Assembly (NCBI GenBank): GCA_015146655.1
Contig: VKHL01000111.1
Span: 1-64,000 of the forward strand
DNA length: 64,000 nt
Direction: 5' to 3'
From: Ochromonas danica
Lineage: Eukaryota > Sar > Chrysophyceae > Chromulinales > Chromulinaceae
Position numbers and translations under genes: made by a program. Of the stretch, positions 3,826 to 53,620 are shown one piece after another. The notes below the pieces were generated by a model. It made no database searches and was not told where the DNA came from. It was given only the letters and a program-made list of their open reading frames with translations. How positions within the stretch are numbered: position 1 is the stretch's first letter; each line of letters starts with the position of its first letter.

Positions 3826-4109
3826 AGAGAGTGTTTCTATATTCATGGCTGTTAATTTGTCTAAATTGTTCATATTTCGACTATTCTTTGCATCGTGGTA
3901 GTTGTTTCTCTTCCTTCGTTGTAAAGTTGTCTTTCGTCTGAAAATTAAGCAATTACACAATTTGGGTGGTGAAACGGCTGCTGTACGTGCCCGTTAGGGC
4001 GATGAATTAACTATGGGTAATAGTTTGGAATAAAAAGCACACATAAATCAATCAAATAAAATAGTCAAGAGTAGTTCTCCTTCGAAAGAAAGAGTCAAGT
4101 CTATGCGAT

Positions 4110-18278: not shown

Positions 18279-19748
18279 CTAGTTCCTCCTCTTCCATGTC
18301 TGCTGCTCTTGCTCGTGTTGATTGTTGGCTGGGCGTTGGTGACGATCACCAGCAGTCCCTTGAGAGGCAGCACTTCTGTCCCAAGAACGGTCACGCTTTC
18401 GATCGCGTGACTCCCTACCACGATCTCGACTATCACCCCGCTGAGGTCGTTGCTGCTGACGGTCATATGCTCCTTTTGGTGGAGGAGAACTGCCACGATG
18501 GTCGCGGCGACCACCAGACAGACTCTCAGGTCTCCGCTCATCTTGTCTGAACTGTCGCCGGTCCTCAACCCGTCGATCTCGAGAGCGAGGTCTGCGTTGA
18601 TAGTTTGGATTATGCATATGATGGCCCTGACCACCTGATAGCATTGGAGGCGAGCCTTCTTCCTCCTGCACACGCTCGCATTGTCCCCACAGGATAATGG
18701 AGATTCGTCCAACAGGAATGCCTTCTTCACACAGAGGCTCGCCATGAGCTTGTTCGATCGCTCTTTCCTCTTCTGTAAGAGCATTCACACCATGTTTCCA
18801 ACTGATATTGGCATCCCTACCAAAGCTAAAGAGCGCACCATTGACTTGAGGGAAATACACTTTCGTGTTGTTATGTGCATGTAGAAATGCTAACTCTCGT
18901 GTAGCACCAAAAGAGACACCCACAGTGATGTTCTGATTCTTCGCTCTTTCGGCATTGAAAGCCGCGGAATCATGATGGAATGGCTTCCAGTCATCGACAT
19001 CTTTGTACCAATTAAACCTCGTGCCCGCTGAGGCATTCTTAATGTGGAAATACTCTCTCATACGATCAATAATCTTCTGATAGGTAGGTGATCCAGTAGG
19101 ATTCTTCGAGATTAGATGGGCTCCTTCATGCCAACTAATCCATTGCGAATCTTTCAATCCATCAGCTTGTGCTGCACGCATTTCTTTGATTAACGTGTTA
19201 TAGAGAGACCAATCGTCAGCCTCACAGAAGAAGTTGGGAACGATCACCACATCATCATGCTTTAATAAACGCTGTCCTAACCCTTCCTTGCCACCGATTA
19301 GAATGCGCAGGTCTGGTCGGACGAGAGTGCTGGCCGGGTCGAAGGATTCCGTGTTTCGACCTTGGCCGCGTGATTTCGCTCTATCCTTCTTACCGTTATG
19401 AATACGAGGATCTTCTTTCTGCCAAACCGCAACTGTATCGTGATCAACGTCTTCTTCTTGTTGTTTGCCTGTGTTGTCTCTGGGATGGTTGTTGTTGTTG
19501 TTGTTGTTGTTGCTGTTGTTGTCATGGTGGTCATGAGGAGTGGTGACTGACTGATTATCCTCTCGATCTCCACTACTAATGACAGTGGTACTACGATTAC
19601 TAGTAGCAGTGGTGGTAGACTGGGCAGCAGGGGCTTTGCGAGAGGACGACAGAGGCTTGAGGTCCAGCAACTTCTTGCGGGGCATGCTGGCCTCCTCCAC
19701 TCCACCATTTGGTGATGATATTACCTTCTGTTGGTCTTCACCTTCCAT
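18279..19748 (-). CDS. AlkB-like 2-oxoglutarate/Fe(II) dioxygenase with an Asn-rich N-terminus and an Arg-rich tail
   Basis: Single exon, 489 residues from the ATG at 19748. Residues ~1-140 are low complexity and include a run of Asn encoded by an AAC/GTT repeat at 19,488-19,522. The catalytic core is at ~145-365. The iron ligands fit HHDSA (His-x-Asp) and the distal His in SWKHG, with RISIILWG supplying the 2-oxoglutarate-binding Arg; SFGATRELAF is the typical AlkB strand before them. The last ~120 residues are rich in Arg, Asp, Ser and Gln with SRDR-type motifs, as in RNA-binding tails. AlkB homologues demethylate alkylated nucleic acids or proteins. An RNA substrate is only suggested by the tail. 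The gene ends about 165 bp from the stop of the giant TPR gene on the other strand. Confidence 0.85.
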   Translation of the reverse strand: MEGEDQQKVISSPNGGVEEASMPRKKLLDLKPLSSSRKAPAAQSTTTATSNRSTTVISSGDREDNQSVTTPHDHHDNNSNNNNNNNNHPRDNTGKQQEEDVDHDTVAVWQKEDPRIHNGKKDRAKSRGQGRNTESFDPASTLVRPDLRILIGGKEGLGQRLLKHDDVVIVPNFFCEADDWSLYNTLIKEMRAAQADGLKDSQWISWHEGAHLISKNPTGSPTYQKIIDRMREYFHIKNASAGTRFNWYKDVDDWKPFHHDSAAFNAERAKNQNITVGVSFGATRELAFLHAHNNTKVYFPQVNGALFSFGRDANISWKHGVNALTEEERAIEQAHGEPLCEEGIPVGRISIILWGQCERVQEEEGSPPMLSGGQGHHMHNPNYQRRPRSRDRRVEDRRQFRQDERRPESLSGGRRDHRGSSPPPKGAYDRQQQRPQRGDSRDRGRESRDRKRDRSWDRSAASQGTAGDRHQRPANNQHEQEQQTWKRRN

Positions 19749-24600: not shown

Positions 24601-26480
24601 TTGGTCAATTTTCCCCTTTATCTACAATGATGGCATCTATGCCACTTCAACGTCCTATTCGCAGCCTCGCCTCGGACCCTTACATCCACGCGAGAGAGTT
24701 CCTCATCCAGATTCAAGACCTTGCTGCTCGCACTGCCGTATGTCAGCTTGGAGAAGGTGGCCTTCGTTCCACTGGCATCTGTATCATTGACCGCGAGTGG
24801 GATGCATTGCATCCGCCAGTGGAAGGTGTACCCGTTCCCCGCCCCATTCCCGAGTTCCCGCCAATGTTTACAGAATCGTCTACTGAGGGCGAAATCGGGA
24901 TTTATGAATGCAGAAGAGACATATTCACGGCGTATATTAACGGCTACCACTTCGTCCGAGATGCAGCCCTCGCAGCAGTTGGTCCTGCAATCCTTACCGC
25001 CCTCACACATCCAACCACTGCTACGTAAAGTATCCCTCCTCGATATCCTGCACCATGTTGACACACACTACGGTTCCCCCGTGGTGCCCACCACCACAGG
25101 CGGCTTCGACCGCGACGTGGCACTCGCCCTGGCCTCGATGTATGACCCTGCCATTCTCGCGTACGCCGCGGCTATTGCAACACGTTCAGCCTCGTCTGCT
25201 GCTATTACCCCCCGACCACCACCTAAACTCTACTGCTGGGTTCATGGATACCAACGCTCTCACGGCGGAAAAGACTGCAATACCCTGCTCGCGGAAGCGG
25301 ACTCGGCAATGCGCACGGCCAAGATGGCTGCCACAGCCCCAACCCCCAAGATCGGCGGCCTGACTGGCAAGTATAAGTGCACCCGGCCCAACCGTCGTTA
25401 GCGCAGCAGCCAGGCGTCGTCCACCTGAGGAGCGGGGGTAGACGTGCAACAGGCATTGCCAAAGGCGGAATGTAATAACACATTTAACGCTGTGTTGTTA
25501 CACGTTCCTGCAGCCTACGTGCTCTACTCCCTGCCACTACCACCCACTCCTCTTCTACGACACTACTGAAGGCGGCGCTGCCACCACCACGCCTCGGAAT
25601 CATCGCCGACTCTGGGGCTACAGACATGCTCGTCCGAGCCTCCGACATACAGATGCTGTCCAACGACGGCACCGCCACGGCGCAGCAGGTCCCCACCATG
25701 AAACAGCTCCTCACCACCCCGTTGTTGCTCTACCGAATGGTGGAAACACCATCGCCGCAGGTTTGCCTCCTCTCAACGCTCTGACGGCGAAGCAGCACGG
25801 CACAGTCCCAGCCCACGTCTTCCCCGATGCAAGCCTTCTTCATCGCTCCCCCCTCGCCATCTGCAACCAACGAGGTCTTCACGTGCACTTCAGATCCGGT
25901 TTCCTCCTATATGTGCGGCGCATTGGGATGACATCTTCTTCTTCTGCCCTTGCTGTGGCTGAGGGTGCGTTGTTGTGGGAGCGGAGTGAGAGGTCCGTAT
26001 AGCGTTGCGATAGCATGAAGTGCGGACGTGGCAGTCGCAGCGAGCTGCGCCACCGGAGTCGTTGAGGTGGATGCCGCTGCTTGGTGCTTGGCCACTCTGT
26101 CCAGCGCTGCTGCCGTGACATCTGACGACAAGGATGCTAACAGCAGCTTGACCGGGCTGGCTCCAGGTAGGACCAGCGGCGCGGGAAACCGTTCGAGCTT
26201 GTCCGTGGCCCCACAGCTACTCGTTGCGATGACAAAGGTGCGCCAGCATCGGTAGTGGTTGGTAGTAGTAGCCAGCAGTGCCATCATGGGGTGCCCATGT
26301 GCCTCCTCGGGCATGCTTCCATTCAAATACCAGGACGGACATGCCGCAATCAGAGGGTGGCCGGTAGCAGCACCGCACCGCACAGCCGGCGGCAGCCAGT
26401 ATTATCATGGCCCCGCTACCATAACAGCAGACTAGACTACCCAATCTTCAATAAAACGAACAAATTAAGTTAACAAGCCG
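24600..26480 (+). mobile_element. Decayed LTR-retroelement fragment, Ty1/Copia-like (gag and protease parts only)
   Basis: A GC-rich island of about 1.9 kb unlike the AT-rich flanks. The part at ~24,620-25,400 looks like a gag region ending in a zinc-knuckle-like CWVHG...H...C motif. The part at ~25,590-25,900 carries an aspartic-protease signature (ADSGAT). No reverse transcriptase, integrase or RNase H is seen and no terminal repeats were recognised, so both ends are approximate. The reading frame has several breaks, and the copy is a dead fragment. The absence of long terminal repeats and of most of pol suggests an old or 5'-retained remnant. The remaining 25,900-26,450 is GC-rich and unassigned. 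The family call rests on the DSGA protease and the knuckle style seen in stramenopile Copia-like elements. Confidence 0.6.
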
Positions 26481-29745: not shown

Positions 29746-29763
29746 ACAACAACAACAACAACC

Positions 29764-29836
<73 letters not shown>
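29746..29836. repeat. (AAC)n trinucleotide microsatellite, ~30 units
   Basis: About 91 bp of nearly pure AAC/CAA repeat with one CCA interruption near the start. It lies between the convergent 3' ends of the 990-residue gene and the Nudix gene, so it is probably in 3' untranslated or spacer DNA. Other GTT/AAC repeats occur in this window at 19,488-19,522, about 24,058-24,094 and 36,938-36,968. Confidence 0.95.
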
Positions 29837-36725: not shown

Positions 36726-39700
36726 ATGTCCTTTTGGAATGATATCCTCGAGAACAAGGTGATCGATCAGCTCTACGAACAAGCGCATTCAATTCAAGGA
36801 ACGGAGACCAGTAATGTACCATTATTACTCTTCACCGCCTCCAATGTTGTTCGCGCTGCAGCCATCACTGTTTCTAGTCGAGCACCAGGTTGGTTTAATT
36901 GTGCATCTAGTTTAACATATAAATATTAGTTTTTCAAGTTGTTGTTGTTGTCGTTGTTGTCGTTGTCGCTGTGCGGATGCCGTGTGCTGTTTGTCTCTGA
37001 CTAACCCGTGTGTTGCTTGTTCTTCCCACAGGAGGAGGATTAGCTGGGGCACTGACTTCTGTTTGGAACAAAGTGACTGGTGCCACACCTGTTCTTCCCC
37101 CCACAGCCACTGCCGACACAACAGGTCAAGGTGATGATGATTATGGTGTAACAAATGGTGTGGCTGCTGATGACGTCATGGAAGAGAAAGAAGACCCCGG
37201 AGATAATAATTCATCGGAGATCATTCATAGTGCTAATGAATACTATGAGGTGGTGGAGATTGAAGAAGATGACATTTCTTTGTCATCCAAACCTGAAATC
37301 GAAAAACAAACAACACGAATAATAGAAGAAAGGGAAGCAGTGCCATCAAGAGAAGCGGAGGAGGATCCTTCTGTCGCTTCTCATCATGTCACTGTTAACA
37401 CCCTCGACCCTGCCATTGTGTCTGTGGCTTCTGCATGTGATGCTTCGACTGTGAGGGAAGCAGCGGAGTCTTCTTTAGCAGCAGTCAATAACAAATATGC
37501 TCTTATCCCATTTACTTCTCACTCTGAGACTCATTCTGAGTCACCTACTATCGCTCGTTTGCCTTCCTTGAATACTGACCTAGATGACGAATTAGCCGTT
37601 GATCTGATGGATGTCGATCTCTTGGAGAATTTCATCAAGAGTTACTCTCCTGCATGCTCCAGAGAACGACCACATGATGTGGTCCAAGAACGACGCATGC
37701 TCCATGATTTAATACAAGCAATCACACGCTATTATCGATTAGCCCTGGAGGAACTGGATATAGGCGGTGATCATTGGGATATCAATCATGTCACTTTACC
37801 CGACCATCACGATATTATTGGTTTAAGTAAATCCCTTCGTAATGCTCCCTTCGCTTCACCAGTGCGAGAGCGCAAGACTGAAGAACCCTCCGGCAGACAC
37901 ACTTTTCAGAAGTTTGCTGAAGGAAGTGTTGGCACTCCACCGCCTTCCCTCTTTGGTTCAATATTTTCCTCCAACCCTCCACCCCAGCAGTCTTCAAATC
38001 CGCAGTCTACCCAGCAGCCACCAACTGCTGTGAGAAATCTGGTGCGCTGCTTGGCAGTGCTGAGAGCCATTGCGAGCACGTTGCTGGGTGTTGTACGAAG
38101 GGCGGAGCTGCAGTCACCCTCCTCCTCCACGTCCTCATCCCGTGTGGCAACAGATTCGAAGTCAGGGTCGGCACGTGCTGCATTGCCTTCTTCTGCTGTG
38201 TCAAGTCTTCGCTGCTGGTGCTGGTTGAGTCATGAGTTTATTCGCACCTTCTTGTTGGGAGCGGTGCGTGAGTCATTGGAGAGCAGTCAGGAAGGACAGA
38301 ATGTGGCGGTGTACACAGTGTTGCGAGTGGTGTTGCAGACACTATCGTGGTCAGGGAAGGATGGTGTGCGAGATAGCACAGCGAGCATTCTAGGGAGCTA
38401 CGACGGGAGTGAGACCATTCGAGACAGCTCGAATGTCAGCGATGGCAACAATGTTGATGGGAATGGTATTGTCAATGGTGGTGAGGGAAGCCTGGGATGG
38501 AATGGGCCATTGACAAAGATGTCGTTGCTATCCTGGATGTTACGGTTCATGTTGCTAGGTCCATCGTCAATGGAGTTAGTGCAGCGATGTCTGTTGGCTG
38601 AGGTGGAAGGCGGAGAGGTAAGAGGAGGGAGTGTGGAGGCGGAGGATCGAATAGGGGCCTTGGCTGTTGAGAGTGGGTCAGGATATGTAGGTAGTCCTGA
38701 GAGCACTGAGCGGAAGAGAGTGGCGATGGGCGGAGAAAGGGAAGAAAAGGTTAAGCATAAGGAGGAAGCAGTTGCGGTGGGTACTTCGTCAATAGCTGGT
38801 TCATCTTCGTTGTGGTCGGGTGGATGGGGAGAAGGAGAGTTAGTGTGGCTGCTGTGGGATCGCATGGGAAGTCAGTCTCGTCCACTGTCCTTATCAGCCT
38901 CATTGCTGTTGAGTTGTTTGCTGCAACATTCTCCTCCGTTGTTGAGTCTCTCGCATGTTTACTCGTTACCGTATGGGTTAGCCAAGACACCAGTATCTGA
39001 TGAGGTGGATGAGGAGGGTCGAGGGCGACTGGGAGGAAGAATGTTGATGGGGTCAGCCAGAGGAACGGAGAGATCTGCCGGATTCGAGGAGTTGTTGTCA
39101 GGTATGGTGTCATCGTTCGAGAAGAAGGAGAGTGTCTCTGTGGATGAGGTGGGTATTCCAGGCATGAGTGAAGGTGACTGTGCGATGCGTCGTGCTTATG
39201 CGAAGACAGCGTGTGACTTGTTGTCTCGCGTGTTGTTCCACGGAGGAGATGAGTTGCTGTCATTACCATCAGCCTATTTCGATCGTTACTTGTTTGGTGT
39301 GGTGGGTGATGGGAGCAGAGGAGTGTCATCACGGGGCCTGACCATGTCCTCCGGTGTAGGTGATGTGAGTGAGGGAGTCGAAGATGTGAAGGAGAAGAGC
39401 TTCTTGGGTCGTCTGCGTCGTCGATTGCACTTGTTCGCTCATTTGCGCATCTATGAGCAGATCGTGTTGTCTGACTTGGTGCAACAGTGCATGTGTGAGT
39501 TGAGTGTGGTGATGGTGTTGGGCAGTGAGAAGGCAGCGAGGCGCAGTTTGGAGTTATCTGTGGAGTTGTTGGATGAGGTGAAGGGGTTATTGGGCGAGGT
39601 TCGTTTGGCAGCGACGAAGCAGGTGGCAGACTTGTCGGGGAAGTGGAGCATGATCGAAGAGCATCTTCGCAATGAAGCTGCTGGTTATCTGATTGAGAGA

Positions 39701-40474
39701 AGACAAGGGTTTGGTGGAAGTCATTTAGTTGGACAATCTAATCCCTCTCCTTGTGCTTTCTTCAATCCTGTCACTACTTTCCTTGCAGGTGATAGTTTAC
39801 CTTTCAGCCCTCAGAATAGTTATATTAGTCGTATTTGCCATGGTCAAGCCTCAGCCTTGAGAAAGCATTTGAAACACGAGTCCATGGTTCAAAAGCAAGT
39901 GTTAGCGAACAGTCTAGTCCTCCAAGAGATGATCTGGGAGATGGAAGCTTTCTTATCCGCTGTTCTTGATCTCAGGAACTTCATGAGTTCGTTATCAAGT
40001 CCTTCTATGGATTGTGAACTTCGTGGGAAAGTGTGGGAAGTGGTGGAAGAGGAAGAAGAGCAAGCCAGTGAGCTGGCAGACCTCGCCGCTCTTCGCAGAT
40101 GTCTTCACACTCCAACGGCTCCTTGTGGTAGTGATAGTAGTAGCAGTAGCCATAATGGAGATGGACGAGAGTGGCTCATTGCTGATTTGGATGGACAAAT
40201 GGTGGAGTTCTTGAAGGAGTACACGAGCTTGACCATTCGATTGGATCAGATCGTCTTGGATAGTCAAGAGCTTTGTGATAGAGCCATTGAAGGGTTGGAT
40301 ACTTTGGTGGTCACTGTTGATAATACCGAAGAACTCTTTCTGGAGGAAGCAGCGAAGTTAGAAGCTTTGCTCAATTTGCTCTTCCATTCTCCTCATCCTG
40401 CTGCTCATCCCCCCAACGAACCTTCTGTCAATGAGTCTGAGACAACAGAGGCAACTCATTCAAACCTATTATAA
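36726..40474 (+). CDS. FHIP/FAM160 (RAI16-like) family protein, copy 1, with the homogenised cassette
   Basis: Two exons, 36726-36888 and 37032-40474, giving 1,201 residues. The N-terminal ~300 residues are unique and acidic and lack the usual RAI16 start. Homology to copy 3 begins near RRMLHDLIQAITRYYRLALEEL. Residues ~374-928 (nt 37,991-39,652) are the cassette shared with copy 3. The C-terminal region diverges again but keeps the family ending (LVLQEMIWEMEAFLSAV and LIADLDGQMVEFLKEY). FHIP proteins join FTS and HOOK to link dynein to early endosomes or AP-4 vesicles. The family call comes from copies 3 and 4, which keep the diagnostic N-terminus. A GTT-rich repeat lies in the intron. Confidence 0.7.
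37991..39652 (+). repeat. Homogenised 1,662-bp cassette, copy in FHIP copy 1 (plus orientation)
   Basis: This segment appears to be base-for-base the same as the reverse complement of 46,642-48,303, as judged by spot comparison and by identical translations on both strands. It starts at TCTTCAAATCCGCAG and ends at AAGTGGAGCATG. Sequence on both sides still aligns but has diverged, so the repeat is a homogenised part of two older paralogues, not a mobile insertion. A sub-part (39,043-39,669) also matches 44,622-45,248. Confidence 0.9.
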
Positions 40475-40748
40475 GATATTGTATTTACTGTAGATAGACT
40501 ATTAGATGGTATTATTTTCGATTTGAACTGGATGTGTGCATTGCATTGTCTTAGTTCTGCCTATTTTAATCATTTAGTGGCTATTGCCATGATTGTGAAT
40601 ACAATGGTGATGATGCTTGCTTTGACTTTGCTTTGTATTCACTATCAATTGATTCCGCTAATTCGTCTGTTAATCACTTTGTCACTACTGCTGCTGCTAC
40701 TATCTTTGTCATCGTCACTACTTCTAATAAATGTTGTTCATGCATTCC

Positions 40749-43700
40749 TCACCTCGAGGAGGCATGCTCGGCTACAACTTTCTCACTCAAGGCATTGCTT
40801 GCTGGAAGGCGATGCTGGCTTCCTCCGTGGATATAGGAAGCAATACGAGCTGTCGGGCCTTGGCCTTGTGAAGGAATGCCCAGATGGTCTTTACTGCGAT
40901 TTTGAAGACTTCGCAGTAAGGCTGTCAACTGGTCGATGCTGGTCACCAATTCTTCATTACGACGAGACAGATTGTCTCTCTAATACAAGCAGATCAACAA
41001 CATCACAGTAAGAAGACCAATCAGTTCATGTCAAGGAAGGAGTTAAGCAATGATTGACCTCAACAATAAGCTGCGAGTTTTGTCTAGCCAGTGATCGCAT
41101 AACTGACTCTTTTGTTTCCAAGACTATCGCATGTGCTTCTCGGTTTGTGTCTAATTCAGATTGTAGTTGACCAACACGTGATTGTGCCAACTCTAAAGAA
41201 CGAAGAATACTCTGTTCACGATCAGACAAACGAAAACTATTTCGTGATTTAGCAGAGAAAGAAGCACGACTTGATTCATGTCCTCTGCCAAACCATCCCG
41301 CGAAATATCCTCCAGTGGATTGTCGATGTGATTCTTTATCTCCACCAAACCCACTGCTGTTACCACCACTTCCACTGCCAAGCGTAAAGCTACTGCTTGC
41401 AGCCGCTCCATTCGCCAATCGTGCCTAACAGAACCATACCATACCATGACAAAGCTCAGCTATCATCATCATCAAGTTTGCATAACAAGATAATAATACT
41501 TACATAAACATCTTCCAGCTTCTCTTCTAGCATAGCTCGGGTTTGTTGTTCGTGTGTTAGCTTGACCATTAGACGTTGTACATAAGTTTCATACTCCTCG
41601 CGAAGCTTAACATACTTCTCCGCATAATTCTGAGCTTCAGCTTGAGCAGATCGAGTCGCAACCTCATGCATAGAGACCGCGCGAGAGAGTCCTCGGATAT
41701 CCTGCTCCAGCCTTAGAGTCAGAGTGTGACTTTGTTCTTCCACCACTTGGAGGTCGACATCAAGCAGACTTGCATTATCATCATCATTACCATTGTCTTC
41801 TCCGCCATTCTCATAGGCAATGGGTCTCTTCTCTGAGTCTTGACTATTCGTCTTCTCCCGACCAAGCAGTCTCTTTATGCTGCTAGTAGTGCTAGTGGCC
41901 TTGGGAGATGCATGTGGAGGAGAAGGAGGGAGAGGTCTGTTGGCATTCGCTCCAGAGGCAGACGGTCGCCTGGGAGGTTTATCAGGAGGAGGAGGAATAG
42001 TTAGTCCTTCCATCCCTTCCACATAAGTAGACGATCTGGACTTGGCCGTCATTGTGTTCTAAACAACATACCACCATTAGCCTAACCATCACAAACAAGG
42101 AAGCAAGATCAAGATCGCTTACCTTCAAGAGTCGTGCTTCAAGGTCTTGAATGGTCACTCGCAATGCCTCAGCCTCAGAGACCTTTTGCAGTGCTTGGAC
42201 ATGTTCCTCCGCAGAACGCATTCGTTCCGTCTCAACTTCTTCTTCTAATGCACGAACTCGTGCACGAAGAGCTTCTGTTTCTTCTAGTGCAGCTTCGTAT
42301 TGTTGTCTCAACTTGTCCATCTCACGTGAAGCATCAAATGCACTGGATGATGTCATAGAATTCTCTGCATTGGACATGATTGTTGCATTAGGAAGTGGAG
42401 AAGATGATCTACTAATAAATGGCGATAGACTTCTTAAACGTTCAACATCTCCATAATCATCCAGGTCATCCGAACTCATGCCTTGTTTTATTTTCTTCTT
42501 TAAGATATGAATCTCCTTCTTAGCTGCTTCCAACAGATTCTTGAGCTCTTCAATTGAAAGCTCTTCATTCACTTTAGCATGTGTTTTAATCTTCTTTGCT
42601 CGTTCACCAAAGCGTAATGTGGATAAAGTCTCTGGTGCATGTGTAATCTCTGGATTACAACAAATGATTAAAGTAGTTTTCGAATTACCACCAAGTGCTT
42701 CACTGAGTAACATCGTCAGCTTTGAATCACGATAAGGAATATGTTTTGCTCCATCAGCTAAGGCATTAATGACCATTCCTAAGGTAGTTAATGAAGAGTT
42801 AATATTCTTAGCTTCTTCTAAACGCATACCAGAAGCACCTGTTTTAGACACTTTCTCTGATCCTGCTAAATCAACAAGAAAGAGTTTTCCACGTTTACAT
42901 CGACCAGTCTCACCATGTTTTTGTTCAATACGAATAGAGAAGATAGAATGTGATCTGGAAGATTCTGCATTCATTAATGTTGGTGAAGTAGCACGATTTG
43001 TTTTACCAATTTCAATAATACGGAAACAATCTTCTCTATTCATTACAGAGATTTCTGTTAGATCAGGTAGTAAAAACCCTGCTCCTTTATTTTCGCGTAT
43101 TTTCAAATTCGTTTGTTGTGGATTTAATAAATCACGTATCTTCTCACAATAGATCTCATAATAAGAAAGTACAATTTGAAATTGAATACTAACATCTGCT
43201 TCATGAATAGCATCAAATAATCGATGAATACAACGTGGTAAGATACCTTGTACATCTTGATCATGTAGAGAACTTCCTTCCATTGTATGACTTTTCCCTG
43301 CTGATGTTTGTCCATAGGCCATGATCGTTCCATTAAATCCAGACAATGTCCCACCAATGACATCTTCTACTTCTTGAAAGATTTGTCGTTGATTTGTATC
43401 ATAACCAAACACTTTGTCAAAGGTGAAAGCACGTGTTTCATAAAGGTCAGAGATACATTTCACTACACCAACATGTTCATCAAGTAGGTAATTGCCTTGA
43501 TCATTACTAACGTTATTGTTTCGACCTGGTCGAAAACGACAAATTACACGAATTGTATCACTTGATGGCGGCAGCTGACTTCCTCCTCCTCCATTACCAC
43601 TACCAGCACTACTGTTTAACCCTTCTAATAGTTGCGGGGCAGAAGGAAAAGAGTTTAATGATCCGCGACGTTTACTACTACTATTCGTTGAATTATTATC

Positions 43701-43898
43701 ATTAAACGAAGTATTAAATACTTGCGGTCCTTCTCCTGGCATGAGACTAGCCCGTCTACGTGTATTAGCAAGCATGACAGGTCCAGCACTTTCATCTCGT
43801 GTTGAGACTAAATCAGAAGAGGAAGAAGTTGCAGTAGTGGGTGTTAAGGAACCTCTTCTTAATCGAATGGAATTCCGATCCTTATTCAAGGAAGCCAT
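40749..43898 (-). CDS. Kinesin heavy chain, kinesin-1 (KIF5)-like motor protein
   Basis: Four exons, 43898-42123, 42058-41504, 41424-41059, 40979-40749, giving 975 residues with phase-0 joins. A Ser/Asn-rich N-terminal extension of ~112 residues precedes the motor domain (~113-435): AYGQTSAGKSHTMEG P-loop, NAESSRSHS switch I, VDLAGSEK switch II and the closing LRFGERAKKIKTHAKVNEE neck that is typical of kinesin-1. Coiled coil follows at ~450-590, then a Pro-rich linker (IPPPPDKPP) and further coiled coil. The third donor is GTCAAT, weaker than usual. The last codons overlap a GTGAGG donor, so a further short exon is possible. It is a plus-end microtubule motor that carries cargo. It sits between FHIP copies 1 and 2. 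Confidence 0.9.
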
Positions 43899-44221
43899 TT
43901 TCGATGATATCAACAAGCCAAGAGCTCTAAGACAGATGATGACAAGGAGAGAGAGAGGACAGGGACAGGGCTAGGAGAGGATAGTCCAGATACTATAACA
44001 ATATGATAGCAATGGGTTGGTATTGTTTCGACGCGATCCTTGCAATTAACCGTGACTTTCCGCCAGATCTCCAGAACGCCAGATCTTCAAATATCTAAAT
44101 ATCCAGAATTTGGAATTGGCTCCTTCATCTTGTCTTACATTTGGCTGGTGTGGTACTATAGTTAGACTAGACTATGACATGGTGTTAAAGCATGTAAAGT
44201 CAAGTCAGTTGAGTAAACGCA
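43899..44221. other. Intergenic upstream of kinesin and downstream of FHIP copy 2
   Basis: No gene seen. The words CCAGATCTTCAAATATC and CCAGATCTCCAGAACG around 44,065-44,115 resemble words near 31,080-31,110 and 19,890-19,950, which may be a shared dispersed promoter motif or chance. Confidence 0.4.
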
Positions 44222-45508
44222 TTAAGTGATTACTAAGGAATCTAATAGAGATTCAACTTGAGCATATTCAATCAAAAACAATTGACTTTGCTCATCACAA
44301 TCCAATCCACCGCCACGAAGTGAATCGAAACTATCTTCTTCCAGATCATTTTCATCTACATCATTGAAACTTCTACCTAGTAGAATACCACCTATCTGGA
44401 ACCAGCTTTGATGAAGTGTGTTTGCAGCAATCAGAAATCCTTGTATTTCCCAACATATCTCATGTAAGACTAACTCAGCGTCAAGAAGCGAACACAAACT
44501 GCTATTGCGTACCTTTCCACTCCAACAAGAGGATATAACAGAAGCCCTCTGAGTACATCTATAACCCCAACCTAGACCCTTCCAATGAAAGCTCCGCAGT
44601 AGACAAGAAGCATGCTTTGCACGAAGATGCTCTTCGATCATGCTCCACTTCCCCGACAAGTCTGCCACCTGCTTCGTCGCTGCCAAACGAACCTCGCCCA
44701 ATAACCCCTTCACCTCATCCAACAACTCCACAGATAACTCCAAACTGCGCCTCGCTGCCTTCTCACTGCCCAACACCATCACCACACTCAACTCACACAT
44801 GCACTGTTGCACCAAGTCAGACAACACGATCTGCTCATAGATGCGCAAATGAGCGAACAAGTGCAATCGACGACGCAGACGACCCAAGAAGCTCTTCTCC
44901 TTCACATCTTCGACTCCCTCACTCACATCACCTACACCGGAGGACATGGTCAGGCCCCGTGATGACACTCCTCTGCTCCCATCACCCACCACACCAAACA
45001 AGTAACGATCGAAATAGGCTGATGGTAATGACAGCAACTCATCTCCTCCGTGGAACAACACGCGAGACAACAAGTCACACGCTGTCTTCGCATAAGCACG
45101 ACGCATCGCACAGTCACCTTCACTCATGCCTGGAATACCCACCTCATCCACAGAGACACTCTCCTTCTTCTCGAACGATGACACCATACCTGACAACAAC
45201 TCCTCGAATCCGGCAGATCTCTCCGTTCCTCTGGCTGAACCCATCAACGGATTGCTTGTTGGTGAGTTTTCGGTATTAGCTGGTGAGTATAGAAGGCTCT
45301 TGGTAATATTGGTAAAGTTCTGGTAAAGTTTCAAGTCCTTTATTTGAACGTGATGAGGTGTGATGAAAAGTGTCTTAAAGTCGCGTAGGAAAGACAAGTG
45401 TGGCAAGACTGCAATTGCTTGATTCCAACACCAATGGAAGAGTCGCATAATGCCATGACGAGCACATGACACATTTAGGAACAGCAGCTGGATAATGGAA
45501 TTCTCCAT
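44222..45508 (-). CDS. Truncated FHIP/FAM160 paralogue, copy 2 (possible pseudogene)
   Basis: One open frame of 428 residues. The N-terminal ~85 residues are weakly related at best to the family. From LMGSARGTERSAG to KWSMIEEHLR (nt 45,248-44,622) it is nearly the same DNA as copy 1. Its C-terminus is its own but keeps family features (LVLHEICWEIQGFL and LFLIEYAQVESLLDSLV). It lacks the RAI16 start and about the first kilobase of the cassette found in copies 1 and 3. Only 165 bp separate it from the stop of copy 3, leaving no room for the missing 5' part. It is either a 5'-truncated duplicate or a short expressed version; the frame itself has no stops. Confidence 0.55.
   Translation of the reverse strand: MENSIIQLLFLNVSCARHGIMRLFHWCWNQAIAVLPHLSFLRDFKTLFITPHHVQIKDLKLYQNFTNITKSLLYSPANTENSPTSNPLMGSARGTERSAGFEELLSGMVSSFEKKESVSVDEVGIPGMSEGDCAMRRAYAKTACDLLSRVLFHGGDELLSLPSAYFDRYLFGVVGDGSRGVSSRGLTMSSGVGDVSEGVEDVKEKSFLGRLRRRLHLFAHLRIYEQIVLSDLVQQCMCELSVVMVLGSEKAARRSLELSVELLDEVKGLLGEVRLAATKQVADLSGKWSMIEEHLRAKHASCLLRSFHWKGLGWGYRCTQRASVISSCWSGKVRNSSLCSLLDAELVLHEICWEIQGFLIAANTLHQSWFQIGGILLGRSFNDVDENDLEEDSFDSLRGGGLDCDEQSQLFLIEYAQVESLLDSLVIT
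44622..45248 (-). repeat. Partial (627-bp) copy of the homogenised cassette, in FHIP copy 2
   Basis: Matches 39,043-39,669 in reverse complement at equal length, with one visible difference at 45,239. Its inner end extends 17 bp past the limit of the copy 1/copy 3 identity (through ATCGAAGAGCATCTTCG). Copy 2 was therefore homogenised with copy 1 rather than with copy 3 at that end. Confidence 0.85.
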
Positions 45509-45672
45509 ATTGAATATAGAATTCCCAATAGTCTTTTATCACCGCAAAGATTTCTTGGACTTGTATTTGTGTTTTGCGATTCACCATAAAGTGTATGCGA
45601 AATGATCAATTCAAGTGCGTTATTAGTTAACGCCAATCTTCACACTATCACTACAGCCATAAAGCAATCATT

Positions 45673-48600
45673 TCAGCACGCAGCAACAATAGCATCGAGT
45701 GCTGCTTCCAATTCTTTATATTCAAGCAAGAACTGAGCTTCACGACCATCTATGTCAGCGAGCATTAAAGGTTTCCTGTCCATCACAGAGCTGTGGTTCA
45801 CAGAATCTTGAAAAGAAAGAGAGCTAAACATGGTGCCTTTCGTGTTGAGAGCTGTTAGCATTCCTTCTATTAGAGCTTGATCAGATCGGTAATCACTCTC
45901 CTCGAATGTATCAGAAGTGATTCCAGTTTTACCATTTGATTGAGACAAAACAACTATTTCGGAGGACCCTTCGCCGTATTCCTGCTCAAGGTTATTACTA
46001 TCATTGTAGGTTGAAACAAAACAACGCAGCTTCTGCACTGCAGAGATATAGCCTTGAATCTCAAGCGCAATCTCTTTCAAAACAAGTGCAGTCGTCAAAA
46101 TAGCTTTACAGTGACTGGGTTCACTCTCTAGACGTCGGCGTAAAATTTGATAAGACGAACCATTTTTGGTTGGCTGGGTAGCTGAAGGCCTCAACTGGCC
46201 AGAAGAGGTTGACAGATTGTTCCGTCTTTGATCTTTGGAGTCAACCTTAACCACATTAGTGCTCACAGCCGTTGATTTTAACGAAGAACCGGATAATGTT
46301 GCAGGATCAGGCAAATTATCAAACAGATTTCCGGTCAATAATTTTGAAACTGGACTGAATGTCATGGAAGCCAAGAAGCTCGTTTGCTTCTTGACAGATG
46401 CAGGATTTGTATTTTGATTCCCCTTAACGCTACCAGAACTTAAAACTGGAGCGCTTGAATGATTAGACGAATATGGCTCACAAACATCCCCTGCTGACTG
46501 CACATGGGAAGCAACGACAGAAGGAGTCTTCGTACTGCCACTTTCAGAAGAAGGGTCAGATATAATCTCACCATTTTCATGAACAGAATCAATCTCAGAA
46601 CACAAAAACTTCCTTGTTTCTAAACGCAAATACTTCTCAACCATGCTCCACTTCCCCGACAAGTCTGCCACCTGCTTCGTCGCTGCCAAACGAACCTCGC
46701 CCAATAACCCCTTCACCTCATCCAACAACTCCACAGATAACTCCAAACTGCGCCTCGCTGCCTTCTCACTGCCCAACACCATCACCACACTCAACTCACA
46801 CATGCACTGTTGCACCAAGTCAGACAACACGATCTGCTCATAGATGCGCAAATGAGCGAACAAGTGCAATCGACGACGCAGACGACCCAAGAAGCTCTTC
46901 TCCTTCACATCTTCGACTCCCTCACTCACATCACCTACACCGGAGGACATGGTCAGGCCCCGTGATGACACTCCTCTGCTCCCATCACCCACCACACCAA
47001 ACAAGTAACGATCGAAATAGGCTGATGGTAATGACAGCAACTCATCTCCTCCGTGGAACAACACGCGAGACAACAAGTCACACGCTGTCTTCGCATAAGC
47101 ACGACGCATCGCACAGTCACCTTCACTCATGCCTGGAATACCCACCTCATCCACAGAGACACTCTCCTTCTTCTCGAACGATGACACCATACCTGACAAC
47201 AACTCCTCGAATCCGGCAGATCTCTCCGTTCCTCTGGCTGACCCCATCAACATTCTTCCTCCCAGTCGCCCTCGACCCTCCTCATCCACCTCATCAGATA
47301 CTGGTGTCTTGGCTAACCCATACGGTAACGAGTAAACATGCGAGAGACTCAACAACGGAGGAGAATGTTGCAGCAAACAACTCAACAGCAATGAGGCTGA
47401 TAAGGACAGTGGACGAGACTGACTTCCCATGCGATCCCACAGCAGCCACACTAACTCTCCTTCTCCCCATCCACCCGACCACAACGAAGATGAACCAGCT
47501 ATTGACGAAGTACCCACCGCAACTGCTTCCTCCTTATGCTTAACCTTTTCTTCCCTTTCTCCGCCCATCGCCACTCTCTTCCGCTCAGTGCTCTCAGGAC
47601 TACCTACATATCCTGACCCACTCTCAACAGCCAAGGCCCCTATTCGATCCTCCGCCTCCACACTCCCTCCTCTTACCTCTCCGCCTTCCACCTCAGCCAA
47701 CAGACATCGCTGCACTAACTCCATTGACGATGGACCTAGCAACATGAACCGTAACATCCAGGATAGCAACGACATCTTTGTCAATGGCCCATTCCATCCC
47801 AGGCTTCCCTCACCACCATTGACAATACCATTCCCATCAACATTGTTGCCATCGCTGACATTCGAGCTGTCTCGAATGGTCTCACTCCCGTCGTAGCTCC
47901 CTAGAATGCTCGCTGTGCTATCTCGCACACCATCCTTCCCTGACCACGATAGTGTCTGCAACACCACTCGCAACACTGTGTACACCGCCACATTCTGTCC
48001 TTCCTGACTGCTCTCCAATGACTCACGCACCGCTCCCAACAAGAAGGTGCGAATAAACTCATGACTCAACCAGCACCAGCAGCGAAGACTTGACACAGCA
48101 GAAGAAGGCAATGCAGCACGTGCCGACCCTGACTTCGAATCTGTTGCCACACGGGATGAGGACGTGGAGGAGGAGGGTGACTGCAGCTCCGCCCTTCGTA
48201 CAACACCCAGCAACGTGCTCGCAATGGCTCTCAGCACTGCCAAGCAGCGCACCAGATTTCTCACAGCAGTTGGTGGCTGCTGGGTAGACTGCGGATTTGA
48301 AGAAAGAGGGTTAGGGGAGAATATTGAACCAGATACTCCATTTATTGGTTGTGCTCTGCTTGGTCCATGAGAGGATAACTGTGGGGTAGTAGACCAAGCT
48401 GATTGTGCGGTGGGTTTGGACAAAGGAGAACCTAAACCTGCAGGTAGTCCACCCGCACCAACTTGAACAGGAAGAAGAATAGAGAAATAGTCAGGATATT
48501 CATAATTATTGGAGCTTTTCTGATTATCTCCATTATTGTAAGGAAAAGAAAAACCAGCCGAGGAGGAAAAATAAGCCTGAAGCTCAATGATTGATTGCGT

Positions 48601-49687
48601 GTAATAATCACCAATTGCTCGAATCAGATGATGTGCGAAAAGAGTTTCTTCCACGAGATATTCAGTTACGCGCGAGTCATTTAAACTGAGAGCAATTAAA
48701 AGCGACTCTAAGGCATAATGAGAGACTTTAGGCTCTTCTAATAGGGGAATTAAGCCACTCAATAAGTCAAAATAGACACGCTTGGGAGCCAAAGGGGTTA
48801 GAGACCATGACGGCCTCCTGGACGTAGACACGCCACTTTAATCAGGAAAAAAGGATTAAAACCCTTCAGAACAACAAAACGGGATGATCAATAGAGAGAA
48901 GCTCACCGAGTGCGTTGAGAAACAATGAACAAATCCAACACTGGAGGATTCTCAGTGACTTTTCTCCACAGAGTTCGCAAGAGAGAGCATAGTCCAATTT
49001 CTAAAGTTTTCACAGATTAAGATTAGCTCGCTTTAAGTAAGGGATGGATTCAAGCTTACTAATGCGTCGCTTGTAGGAGGCTACGCGTTCTTGATCACTA
49101 CCCGCTGACGAAGTAAAGACTGCATCGTATCTGGTAGCAACGGATATAAGATTGCTGATCGGCTTGTATACAGATTGATGGGGTAACAAAGGATACTTAA
49201 TCACACGAAGAAGGCTTGACAGCGTACTGAGCATGAGTGGCATTGTGCCTCTGGGGAGGTCATTCATTCCTCTCTGACAAAGTTGTTGAATCACATGCTT
49301 TTGCAACAGGTAATCCAGTATAGGAGTCTTCACTTCCTCATCACTATAGTCTATATTTTCATATCCTAGCTTTCTCTGTGCTTCTAACCACATCTTATCA
49401 TCATTTTCTAGCATTGCTATCATCTTCTTAAGACTTCCTCGAACACCCGCTTTCTGAAGCCGATTATCAGCTTCTGTAGTATCAGCATCATACAGATTCG
49501 CTTCTTGGTCTAAGTACTTACAAATGAGAAGAAACAAATTTTCGAACTCTTGCTCTGGTCTAACATGAGAGGAGTGTTCCGACGAAAAGGAGACTGTAGT
49601 GGATTGGACTACGTTAGAAATCAGTGTGGCACTTTTCTTTGCGAAATTAATTGCCGATCCCTTGACTTTAGTAAAATAGTTTTTCAT
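45673..49687 (-). CDS. FHIP/FAM160 (RAI16-like) family protein, copy 3, full length
   Basis: Three exons, 49687-49060, 49000-48907, 48835-45673, giving 1,294 residues. The GTAAGC donor at 49,059 gives a phase-1 join at RRI, the same place as in copy 4. The N-terminus carries the family signature: TPILDYLLQKHVIQQLCQ, then PRGTMPLMLSTLSSLL and the YPLLPHQSVYKPISNLI block that matches QPLLPHINVHRPVQKLI in animal FAM160 proteins. Exon 2 gives LLRTLWRKVTENPPVLDLF, again family-like, and exon 3 an armadillo-like LLSGLIPLLEEPKVSHYALESLL. Residues ~418-972 are the homogenised cassette. The C-terminus ends LADIDGREAQFLLEY and a final Cys. FHIP bridges FTS-HOOK-dynein to membranes. This is the most complete copy. 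Confidence 0.8.
46642..48303 (-). repeat. Homogenised 1,662-bp cassette, copy in FHIP copy 3 (minus orientation)
   Basis: Reverse complement of 37,991-39,652 at equal length with no difference found where compared. The two copies are inverted about 7.0 kb apart and enclose the kinesin gene and FHIP copy 2. The cassette is richer in G/C and in GAG/GTG/TTG codons than the flanking parts of the same gene. Long antisense open frames inside it are a by-product of that composition. Confidence 0.9.
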
Positions 49688-50247
49688 CGTGAAGATCTAA
49701 TCGCGATGAAAGGAGAAATCGAAATGGTTTGACAATTTATTTCCTCTTTGTTCTTCCCACCAGAACCTCTTTTGCCCATCACATCTGCCAGTATCCCGCG
49801 CAAAACAACAACATTGCAACTCCACTTTGATCAATGATGATGATGTCTACTGGATATCTAAGGATCTTAGTGGTGGTGGATGATGTAACAAATATAATAC
49901 CATATTCAAAAAAAGAATGTCTAGTTTATTAACAACGATCTCTAAACACAACTCATCCAACATATTGGATGAAACAAGGTCATCTATCGAGTCTTGTTGA
50001 AGCAACGATATATATATACAAAACACGTAAGCAATAGTTTCTATTCAACAACAGATCGCACAATCCTAAACCAAGCACATTACAAAAAGTAAGTTCAGTT
50101 AATGCTAACTCATGATAGGCTCTTAGCCACCAGCATATACCGAATCATCTTTCATTTACGAAGATGGCCACAGAAACAACACAACAATAGCCAACAACCT
50201 AAACGACAAGTTACAGCGAAAAATAACGGAGGGCTCAGAGAATATGA
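49688..50247. other. Intergenic between FHIP copies 3 and 4
   Basis: No gene seen. The spacer is AT-rich and includes a TATATATA run near 50,010. It should contain the promoter of copy 3 and the 3' end of copy 4, since both are on the minus strand. Confidence 0.45.
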
Positions 50248-53189
50248 TCAATCCAAATTCTCTCGATGGCCCAACTCTGTATATGTATGGAAGTTCATTA
50301 ATTCCCTCACGAACTCCTCCTCAAAAACTTCTTCAGCATTATCCCACGAAAATGGTTGCGAGTGTGTGAAGGAATTACGTTTTTCATCATTTCTCATTCG
50401 CACAAGTTCGCATAATGGAATCAAATCCTTAACTACAGCGGCTGGCTCTTCCAATGAATCTACACAATCATAGGACTCCGAGCTTAATTGAGGCTTCAAA
50501 GTGGGTAGCATGGCACAGCGCAAGATAGAATGGGAGTGGAATATGGTTCGAAGCTTTTGGACCGCCACCAAACAAGACAGAGCTTCTAGATATACCTCAT
50601 CCAAAATTACTAAACTACGAATGATGTCTTTCTCGTCACCACAAGCTTCATAAGCCTGCAAAGATTCAGTCCTCGTCCTTGTTGGCGTCTTTCGATCAAC
50701 TCTGGTGTGGCCATCGACAGAAACAATAGAACTATCTCTTTCGAGATTGCTATCTATAGAAGGAGACGAAGACGAAAATAGACCAAAGAACTTGCTCAAT
50801 GAAGATCGACGCTGGGCAGGAGGCGAAGTATTACATGGTTTAGCATTCTCTTTAGTCTCTTCACAAAGTGATGATGCATCGTCTTTCCCCACGAACAACA
50901 TCCCTTCTTTCTGCATGTAAGAATGGACTGCTTCCACTGCAGCCTTATGCTTCTTTTCATCGATGACCGGAATCTTTGATAATATGACGCTGCGCACTTT
51001 CTGCAGTTCCTTAAGAACTTCCTCCAAAACTGCGAGATGCTGTTTGGCAACCACCTCAGATCCCAGGATCATAAGAACAGCCACCAGGACTAAGGATTCT
51101 TGGAATAAAGCTGATAAAGCTATCTGCTCTTGTACAAGGAGGTTATCGAATGTCAAGAACTTTCGAAACAGTCGATCAAAAAACGAGCAGTCACCGGAGG
51201 TCGATAACAGTCGATGATGACTGACATCCATATGATGTGAACGAAATCGAATATGACGGTATCTATCAAAAAAGCCAACTGTCATATTTAGCAAGCCGTC
51301 ACAATCGGATAACAAAAGCACAACCACTTCGTGACTCATTGCTGCTGCGTATTCTTTGATCGTCAACGGAACAGGTTGATGTTCAACAAATAGAGATTGG
51401 CGTCTCAAGTTGCGAATGGAAGCATCATAAAGAATATTTACGTTTGCTGTAAAGCTTCCTTGAAAAACGGAGAGTAATGGCTTGCTTTGTGTCAGAGCAC
51501 GAAATAACACGTTTCTACCTGCTGCCTGCTGTCCCTCCTTTAACGGTCCGTACAGCAAATGCAGACCAGCCAGGGGCGGGGTTGCTTTCAAAAGGGTAGA
51601 CAAGAAAGCGATCGCAGCCATAGCAGTAGGTTTACAAAGGGAACCCACTCGACCCCAAGCTAGATCCACTAGTATGCTCTTTAGTATATGTTTCACAGTC
51701 AAACTCAACAAAGACTGCTCTGATTCGCTCCATGATACATCATCATTCTCTTCTTCTACCAGTACATGTTTCGATGAAGCACTATTACCAGAGCAATATA
51801 ACGTGTTGAGAGAGAGACTAAGCATTATGTAACCAGCTACCAAGTCTTGTTCTTCTGCCACGTCTAACATCTTGTTCAAAACTGGGTGAAGAAACTCCCA
51901 AAAGAAATCATGGGAAATATGTGATAGGGCAATCCATTTCGCTCGCGCTTTTGAGCCTTTACCAGTGCGCATAGGGAGAATAGGCTGCTTGGCGGATCTT
52001 AAGAGCGTGCCGTGAACACTTGCAATAAGTGTGAGAATGCGCAGATAACGATGAACTTTCTCGATCACGATCTGCTTAAAGAACGCTTGCTCTTCTTTGT
52101 TAACCTTCTCTTTGTCAAAGCTAACTTTTCTCAACGGTATTGCTGAAGTTGAAGAGGAGAGGAAGACTTGCAAATAGTCTGGTACCTCACTTAGTATATC
52201 TGCATGCTCCTTCATAACTTCAAAGGCTTCAAAGAAGCTACTTTGTAAATTGAGAATCCAATGCCTAACATAATCATGTCTCGAAGAAAAATAGCCAAGC
52301 ATGTTTGGATCTTGAGTGTTGCATGCAACTAACAATGCCTGATGAGCAAAATGGAACGTTGACTGCTTCTGAACTAACATAAACAGAGCTGCAAGAACAT
52401 CAATATTGCAATCATTGGCCAGCCTATGTTTATAAACTGTGTTTAGGGAAGGAAACAGCAAATACGTTTTAATGAGAATGAAGGAAAAGACTGACATTGG
52501 GTTCGTCGATACGAAAGCATGGAGACATTTCGTTTCCAGAGCGATCTTTTTCCATAGCGATAGTAAGAACTCTGACAAGTTTATCTCTGAGCACACATAA
52601 GTAATTAGCCAAAAAGGAGTTATTTTGTGAAAGAATGCCTGCAGTACCTACCTATGCGTCTCAAGTAGTTGGAATAGACCACAGCATCCTCTTCAAAGCA
52701 ATTATCAAAGATTTCTTCATATCTCATAGCAACATTGATGAGTTGTTTAATAGGATTAACAATGGTTGCCGTGAGGAGAAGCGGATAACTTGAACAATCC
52801 AGAATCGCAGTCAGCGTGTTCATCAATATAGGCATACTACCACGAGGTATGTCTTGGACAGCACGATTACACAAAGTATACATCATAATGGAGTCAACAA
52901 TACACGGCTTGGCCACCGAGTCAAAATGAGCATCTGCCACAATTCTCTCTTTCTTCCACTTACTGTCATCGTTAGCAATCATATCAACCAATAATCTCAA
53001 CTTGGGTTCCAAGGAGGAACACATGTTCAATGTTTCCTCACATAGACGATCTGCTATAGGAAGAATAGCTAGATTCTCAAAAGCTCGATCAATATCAGCA
53101 AAGAGGTAATCTATATCCTCATTATGACCCAATGACCGTTCTGGATTGTTCTTGCTGTTTGTTCGTTGTGAGAAGAGTCCACGCAACAT
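50248..53189 (-). CDS. FHIP/FAM160 (RAI16-like) family protein, copy 4, divergent
   Basis: Two exons, 53189-52652 and 52586-50248, giving 958 residues; the intron is 65 nt and phase 1 at the same RRI position as in copy 3. The N-terminus keeps IVDSIMMYTLCNRAVQ, PRGSMPILMNTLTAIL and YPLLLTATIVNPIKQLI, the RAI16-type block. Further on LSEFLLSLWKKIA, SHDFFWEFLHPVLNKML and FFDRYRHIRF match copies 1 and 3 at a distance. It has no homogenised cassette and its codon use is like that of the surrounding genome, so it shows the older state of the family. The C-terminus carries a Ser-rich stretch (FGLFSSSSPSIDSN) and ends in a charged helix. The start is the first ATG; an upstream in-frame GTG was not used. 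Confidence 0.75.
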
Positions 53190-53620
53190 GAGCTGCTCAC
53201 TCACGGTGGAACAAATATGAGAAAGCCTTTATTCTTTATTGAAGAGCCTATATAAAATCTCCACCTGTGGGACAGTTTTTTCTTTCCAGTAAATCAATCT
53301 GCAATTGATGATCGCAGAACAACGCCTTCCACTGTATACCCCACGCAAATTGTACTAGTCAAAACTGCAGTGAATTTGCATGCAATCATATTAGACATCA
53401 CCCGGGGAAAGCTATGACATACTGCTGTAGCTACTGTATGTAGATCAGTCTTGTAGTTTTAACTGAGAGCTTCCAGCAAAAGTGAATTGACATTGCTATT
53501 CTGTGAATATTAGGAAGATTGATGTTCAAACCATTTAACATTACATTTCAACATTACAGAAAGATATGTGGTTTGTTTTTGCGACGAAAGCTGCTTGATA
53601 TATATATATATACTGGAGTA
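53190..53620. other. Intergenic upstream of FHIP copy 4 and downstream of MINDY
   Basis: No gene seen. AT-rich with a short TATATATATATA run at about 53,600-53,611, inside the 3' region of the MINDY gene. Confidence 0.45.

Follow-up and report, generated by a model that had tools for sequence, protein, structure and literature searches.

Partial homogenisation of paralogous genes is already known. In the mammalian pairs BMP8A/B, DDX19A/B and TUBG1/2, described as cases of concerted evolution (PMC2720389), one part of the gene pair is kept alike while other exons have diverged, and converted regions are, in the sections of that paper available here, typically richer in guanine plus cytosine (GC) than their flanks. 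A review of ectopic gene conversion in Drosophila (PMC3924832) likewise states, in its available part, that tract GC is generally above that of the flanks, and the converted paralogues excerpted from PMC3966223 (the hsp16 modules and hsp70 pair of Caenorhabditis) are adjacent, inverted or direct, and a short distance apart. The cluster of FHIP-like genes that we describe here, from the first 64,000 nucleotides of contig VKHL01000111.1 of Ochromonas danica (assembly GCA_015146655.1; this whole stretch is the window), resembles them in these respects: a coding block of 1,662 bp is identical in two nearby genes that have otherwise diverged, they are inverted as BMP8A/B are, and the block is GC-richer than its flanks. 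It also differs. The pairs of PMC2720389 were, as far as the available text goes, sought by stretches more than 97% identical with consecutive exons, whereas here the alignable flanks go down to 33–35% protein identity, three members are involved and the GC gain consists of G only. The Caenorhabditis cases are described, in the accessible part of that paper, without a codon-usage break, unlike the block. The Drosophila review reports, in its available part, that converted regions do not exceed the unconverted members of their family in GC, while here the block stands at 0.54 against 0.42 in an unconverted relative. The present case is extreme in degree and its one-sided codon shift is odd. A literature search for FHIP together with gene conversion found no paper. 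The genes (c1 to c4) and the copies of the block are as follows:

36,726 to 40,474, forward strand: c1, FHIP-like gene with the full block (open frame across a predicted splice, flank protein homology to c2)
45,673 to 49,696, reverse strand: c2, FHIP-like gene with the full block (open frames and a PF10257 match)
44,222 to 45,535, reverse strand: c3, open frame that contains the 3' portion of the block, followed by a diverged C-terminal flank of FHIP-like type
50,248 to 53,228, reverse strand: c4, FHIP-like relative lacking the block (main frame 52,647–50,248, N-terminal exon about 53,228–52,623)
37,991 to 39,652, forward strand: block copy in c1, 0/1662 mismatches to the c2 copy
46,642 to 48,303, reverse strand: block copy in c2, inverted relative to the c1 copy, 0/1662 mismatches
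44,622 to 45,248, reverse strand: third, partial block copy, in c3, with 1 mismatch in 627 against 39,043–39,669

The first-pass annotation had reported two FHIP paralogues sharing a nearly identical segment of 1,662 bp. That observation is confirmed and the identity is in fact complete, but the third carrier, c3, had been missed; a self-comparison of the window places the sole mismatch of its copy at 39,052 (c1 coordinate). Identity and length of the copies are beyond chance. Between c1 and c2 there is no synonymous change in any of the 554 block codons, and the upper 95% bound on divergence lies near 0.18%. All three copies are in frame within long coding frames, which continue over both edges of each copy between differing coding flanks, and the junctions fall in frame at matching protein positions (at either edge in c1 and c2, in c3 at the right one).

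Outside the block the genes are homologous but strongly diverged, as had been noted on first reading. The 5' flanks of c1 and c2 share 39 of 112 aligned residues (shuffle z 7.6) and their 3' flanks 46 of 133 (z 19.0), scores reached by 0 of 300 shuffles in either case. The 3' flank of c3 shares 21 of 62 residues with that of c2 (0/300 shuffles reach the score) and 29 of 87 with that of c1 (1/300). Agreement at four-fold degenerate sites, limited to positions with the same residue, was 7/17 (5') and 1/13 (3') between c1 and c2, where 0.28 and 0.30 were expected, and 2/6 and 3/9 in the two comparisons involving the c3 3' flank, all expectations lying between 0.25 and 0.31. This is about chance, so the silent sites outside the block are close to saturated. 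The comparison of synonymous divergence inside and outside the block, suggested by the first-pass annotation, gives an extreme contrast. Set against c4, the 3' flanks of c1 and c2 share 20/68 and 30/96 residues (the c3 3' flank had no match to c4), and thus the divergence between the c1 and c2 flanks is almost as great as that of either from c4. Within the block, the main frame of c4 is identical at 69 of 219 aligned residues, and 253 block codons cannot be aligned to it. These 253 codons, in which weak protein constraint is expected, are identical in the copies as well; we see copying as the only reasonable cause. A sharp stretch of near-zero divergence between otherwise diverged, homologous loci is what defines an ectopic conversion tract; such a stretch is found here, and its flanks are homologous except for the 5' part of c3. 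Purifying selection alone was rejected given the 554 codons without synonymous change; selection for a shared protein function, one of the causes put forward on first reading, cannot alone erase synonymous differences.

The best-supported reading, to which we give somewhat better than even odds, is that the middle coding block has been copied recurrently among c1, c2 and c3 by ectopic gene conversion. The recent conversion between old paralogues proposed earlier agrees with the absence of differences inside the block and the chance agreement of four-fold sites outside it. Under such a process the three genes would exchange the block, which would evolve as one shared unit while the flanks diverge, and conversion tracts would end where the copies cease to match. 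The preference for G-ending codons described below would be older than the last copying, and probably not a product of symmetric GC-biased repair. The contrast is extreme, zero differences standing beside flanks with near-saturated silent sites in three genes, and any tree made from the full length of these FHIP-like genes would combine two histories.

The block is set apart by composition as well. The higher GC of the core, also pointed out in the first-pass annotation, holds: 0.535 against 0.422–0.465 in the four adjoining c1/c2 flanks and 0.42 in c4, with GC at third codon positions (GC3) at 0.57 versus 0.32–0.40 in the four flanks. On the coding strand the third-position rise is all G, C being lower (43% G and 14% C in the block; 13–22% G and 16–21% C in the four flanks). 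At four-fold sites, G amounts to 0.35 (background mean 0.14, maximum 0.22 in 88 overlapping windows) and C to 0.14, versus 0.16–0.24 in the flanks. Background sets comprised 13 open frames; neither these nor the set of 20 genes or gene parts used for codon usage include the GC-rich frame 24,631–25,398, which is doubtful as a coding sequence (C 0.36 and G 0.27 at third positions, no Pfam match). The background windows for third-position G and for dinucleotides overlap and are therefore not independent. Two-fold codons show the same asymmetry: the G:A ratio in GAR, AAR and CAR codons is 64:11 in the block versus 71:96 in its own flanks (odds ratio 7.9, P 3e-10), and the C:T ratio in pyrimidine-ending ones 25:41 versus 64:152 (odds ratio 1.45, P 0.23). 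Lysine is always AAG (17/17), and CAG makes up 0.86 of glutamine, GAG 0.80 of glutamate, GTG 0.69 of valine and TTG 0.58 of leucine codons, CTC and CTT occurring once each. Arginine CGN codons barely shift (CGG 3/30 in the block, 1/28 in the flanks), and in the part that cannot be aligned to c4, G is frequent at first and second positions also (0.45 and 0.31, against 0.31 and 0.15 in the background); for both reasons, selection for expression is not favoured.

In codon usage the block lies at a distance of 1.39, whereas none of the 20 genes or gene parts exceeds 0.95. The first four native axes of that set account for just 20% of the block's shift (cosines 0.42, -0.08, -0.07 and -0.11), and on this ground we rejected the idea that the block is merely an extreme of native codon variation. 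The strand-symmetric dinucleotide signature, at 0.106, is within the range of the window but high in it (as large a value occurs in 10 of 146 windows), and is exceeded by two of the four c1/c2 flanks; CpG is 0.66 in block and window alike. The block thus looks foreign in its choice of codons but not clearly so in its DNA signature. It has its own compositional history, being either a long-lived conversion unit or sequence imported from a donor that uses codons differently.

This codon usage extends up to, or close to, the edges of the identity. A codon score trained on the block crosses into positive values at the edges of all three copies, and a six-frame scan with it (120-codon open stretches in steps of 20) gave nothing above 0.2 beyond the three copies and their immediate rims. 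As the score had been trained on the block itself, we made an independent fit of two break-points to G-ending codons, in which the identity edges were not used as input. The fitted breaks were 37,985/39,662 in c1, 48,294/46,593 in c2 and 45,250/44,629 in c3, to be compared with identity edges at 37,991/39,652 (39,669 with c3), 48,303/46,642 and 45,248/44,622; they are 2–49 bp off these edges, five of the six within 10 bp. The gain in log-likelihood (lnL) from the two breaks was 42.7, 42.4 and 20.4, respectively, and 6.6–6.9 in three control stretches.

Short traces outside the edges bear on the order of events. Past the right edge of the c1/c2 identity, 17 bp are common to c1 and c3 and absent from c2. 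The six c1 codons of this stretch, the last base of which is not common with c3, are flank-like in codon choice (log-likelihood ratio -2.65); 0.9% of six-codon windows in the block and 28% of those in the flanks are as flank-like. This suggests that c1 and c3 exchanged sequence directly, a course favoured over three imports out of a single external donor. Just beyond the left edge, 23 of 27 bases match between c1 and c2, after which the two differ in length by 9 bases; the average for the protein-aligned codons of this flank is 0.47. Third positions at this rim agree in six of eight codons as counted by eye (P about 0.01), suggesting the worn margin of an earlier, wider tract.

The main rival to recurrent conversion is a one-off import: one paralogue would have had its middle replaced by DNA from a donor that uses codons differently, either a distant FHIP gene from some other part of the genome or a different organism, and the replacement would then have spread by copying. 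We regard this as possible but unlikely. The codon usage outside the compared range, little of it accounted for by native axes, the four-fold G above the background maximum and the sharp block edges are what such an event would leave; the dinucleotide signature within the range of the window, though high in it, and the unchanged CpG speak against it, and the right edges of the three copies lie within 17 bp of one another, unexpected for independent imports. In viral and prokaryote collections no relative appeared: viral contigs gave 8 pattern matches with the block and 14 with the alignment query, and genome contigs of the prokaryote collection 10 with the block, none confirmed as relatives, which says little as these are not eukaryote collections. 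Another alternative, to which we attach a slightly lower likelihood than to the import, treats the block as an intragenic unit of separate history, acquired from a source that prefers different codons and copied across paralogues too diverged for ordinary conversion, in effect one separately evolving protein core worn by three old genes. Strand-symmetric GC-biased gene conversion, the other cause offered on first reading for the GC-rich core, would fit the raised GC3 and the tendency of converted regions to be GC-richer than flanks (PMC2720389 and PMC3924832, in their available parts). A repair bias toward G:C pairs should, however, move G and C together, and G/A two-fold codons shift while C/T ones do not clearly do so and four-fold C does not rise; only G gains, which contradicts symmetric bias as the sole cause and makes it very improbable. 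The locus can serve to test if conversion changes base composition, as a gain on one strand only is not something that symmetric repair bias can give.

Exact identity can also arise when a short-read assembly fills repeats, a single real copy being written into several places. We consider such an artefact improbable, though a little less so than symmetric bias, since every copy keeps its frame open over both edges between different coding flanks, the edges fall at matching protein positions (both in c1 and c2, the right one in c3), and the c3 copy carries one different base and ends at other positions. Least credible is the notion that antisense open frames in the block are genes whose upkeep drives the G-ending codons. 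One of the three antisense frames holds 6 stops, whereas 2000 synonymous shuffles that preserve the codon counts average 10.9 (P 0.03); this is not significant once three frames are counted, another frame has an excess of stops (10 against a mean of 6.6), and the homology to c4 lies in the sense frame. Several points also weigh against recurrent conversion. To start, conversion requires matching DNA, of which the flanks have almost none; the recurrent kind would therefore have to have kept the core alike ever since the old duplication. By analogy, it would hardly start afresh between copies as diverged as the flanks, favouring a core that never diverged. Symmetric GC-biased conversion would raise C with G, and no rise in C is seen; base composition may moreover promote conversion instead of resulting from it, according to the available part of PMC3924832. 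The right break of c2 at 46,593 is 49 bp past the edge, its 2-lnL interval (46,632–46,578) just missing it, and the interval of the left break of c3 is wide (45,262–44,833). At its left end the c3 copy borders on sequence with no clear FHIP homology, so this end may mark a truncation instead of a conversion edge. The traces at the margins, finally, are short (27 and 17 bp) and were chosen post hoc, and are suggestive only.

The cluster consists of four old FHIP-like paralogues, three in the same orientation and one inverted. The inferred model of c1 has exon 1 at 36,726–36,888 and exon 2 at 37,032–40,474, separated by a predicted GT-AG intron (36,889–37,031). In c2 the main open frame runs from 48,837 to 45,673 and the N-terminal exon from about 49,696 to 49,010, with approximate splice sites. 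The N-terminal exons of c4 and c2 are identical at 53 of 170 residues. The 5' part of c3 comprises about 95 codons without clear FHIP homology, the best of six flank comparisons being reached by 9 of 300 shuffles; c3 could be a truncated paralogue or a new fusion gene.

The family assignment made on first reading is supported most directly in c2, the N-terminal exon of which matches PF10257 (RAI16-like) with an E-value of 2.3e-8 and 33.8 bits (cut-off 24.9); we take this to be the FHIP family. By this single above-threshold Pfam match and homology among the copies, the other genes are probably FHIP-like too. The main frame of c2 scores 15.7 bits, under the gathering score of 24.9, and none of the other frames scanned (the c1 long frame, c3 and the c4 main frame) had a PF10257 match at E 0.01. 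Sequence searches of the PDB with the alignment query and the c2 N-terminal exon returned weak matches to other proteins only (best E 0.52 and 0.42). An AlphaFold2 model of the c2 main frame built with three sequences had a mean predicted local distance difference test score of 31.7 and is unusable for telling if the block edges coincide with domain borders. Searches with Rfam and with ARAGORN (bacterial settings) found nothing.

One further gene lies between the inverted copies, between c1 and c3 and outside the repeat:

41,982 to 43,970, reverse strand: kinesin-1-like motor gene (PF00225, E 6.8e-105; top PDB matches are kinesin heavy chains)

The exact 1.66-kb inverted repeats (37,991–39,652 and 46,642–48,303), 7 kb apart, enclose c3 and this gene; they could permit the intervening segment to invert, in which case the 3' ends of c1 and c2 would be swapped. 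Elsewhere in the window, the highest GC of any 1-kb bin (0.595) is found at 25,001–26,000, near the frame 24,631–25,398. An array of about 30 ACA triplets at 29,746–29,836 follows a long open frame, and GTT-type arrays lie at 19,488–19,522 and 36,938–36,972, the latter within the predicted c1 intron. Besides the kinesin, window genes include Pfam matches to MINDY and PX, and 4,065–15,539 holds two long open frames next to each other, both with TPR matches, of 661 and 3,163 codons, the latter without interruption.

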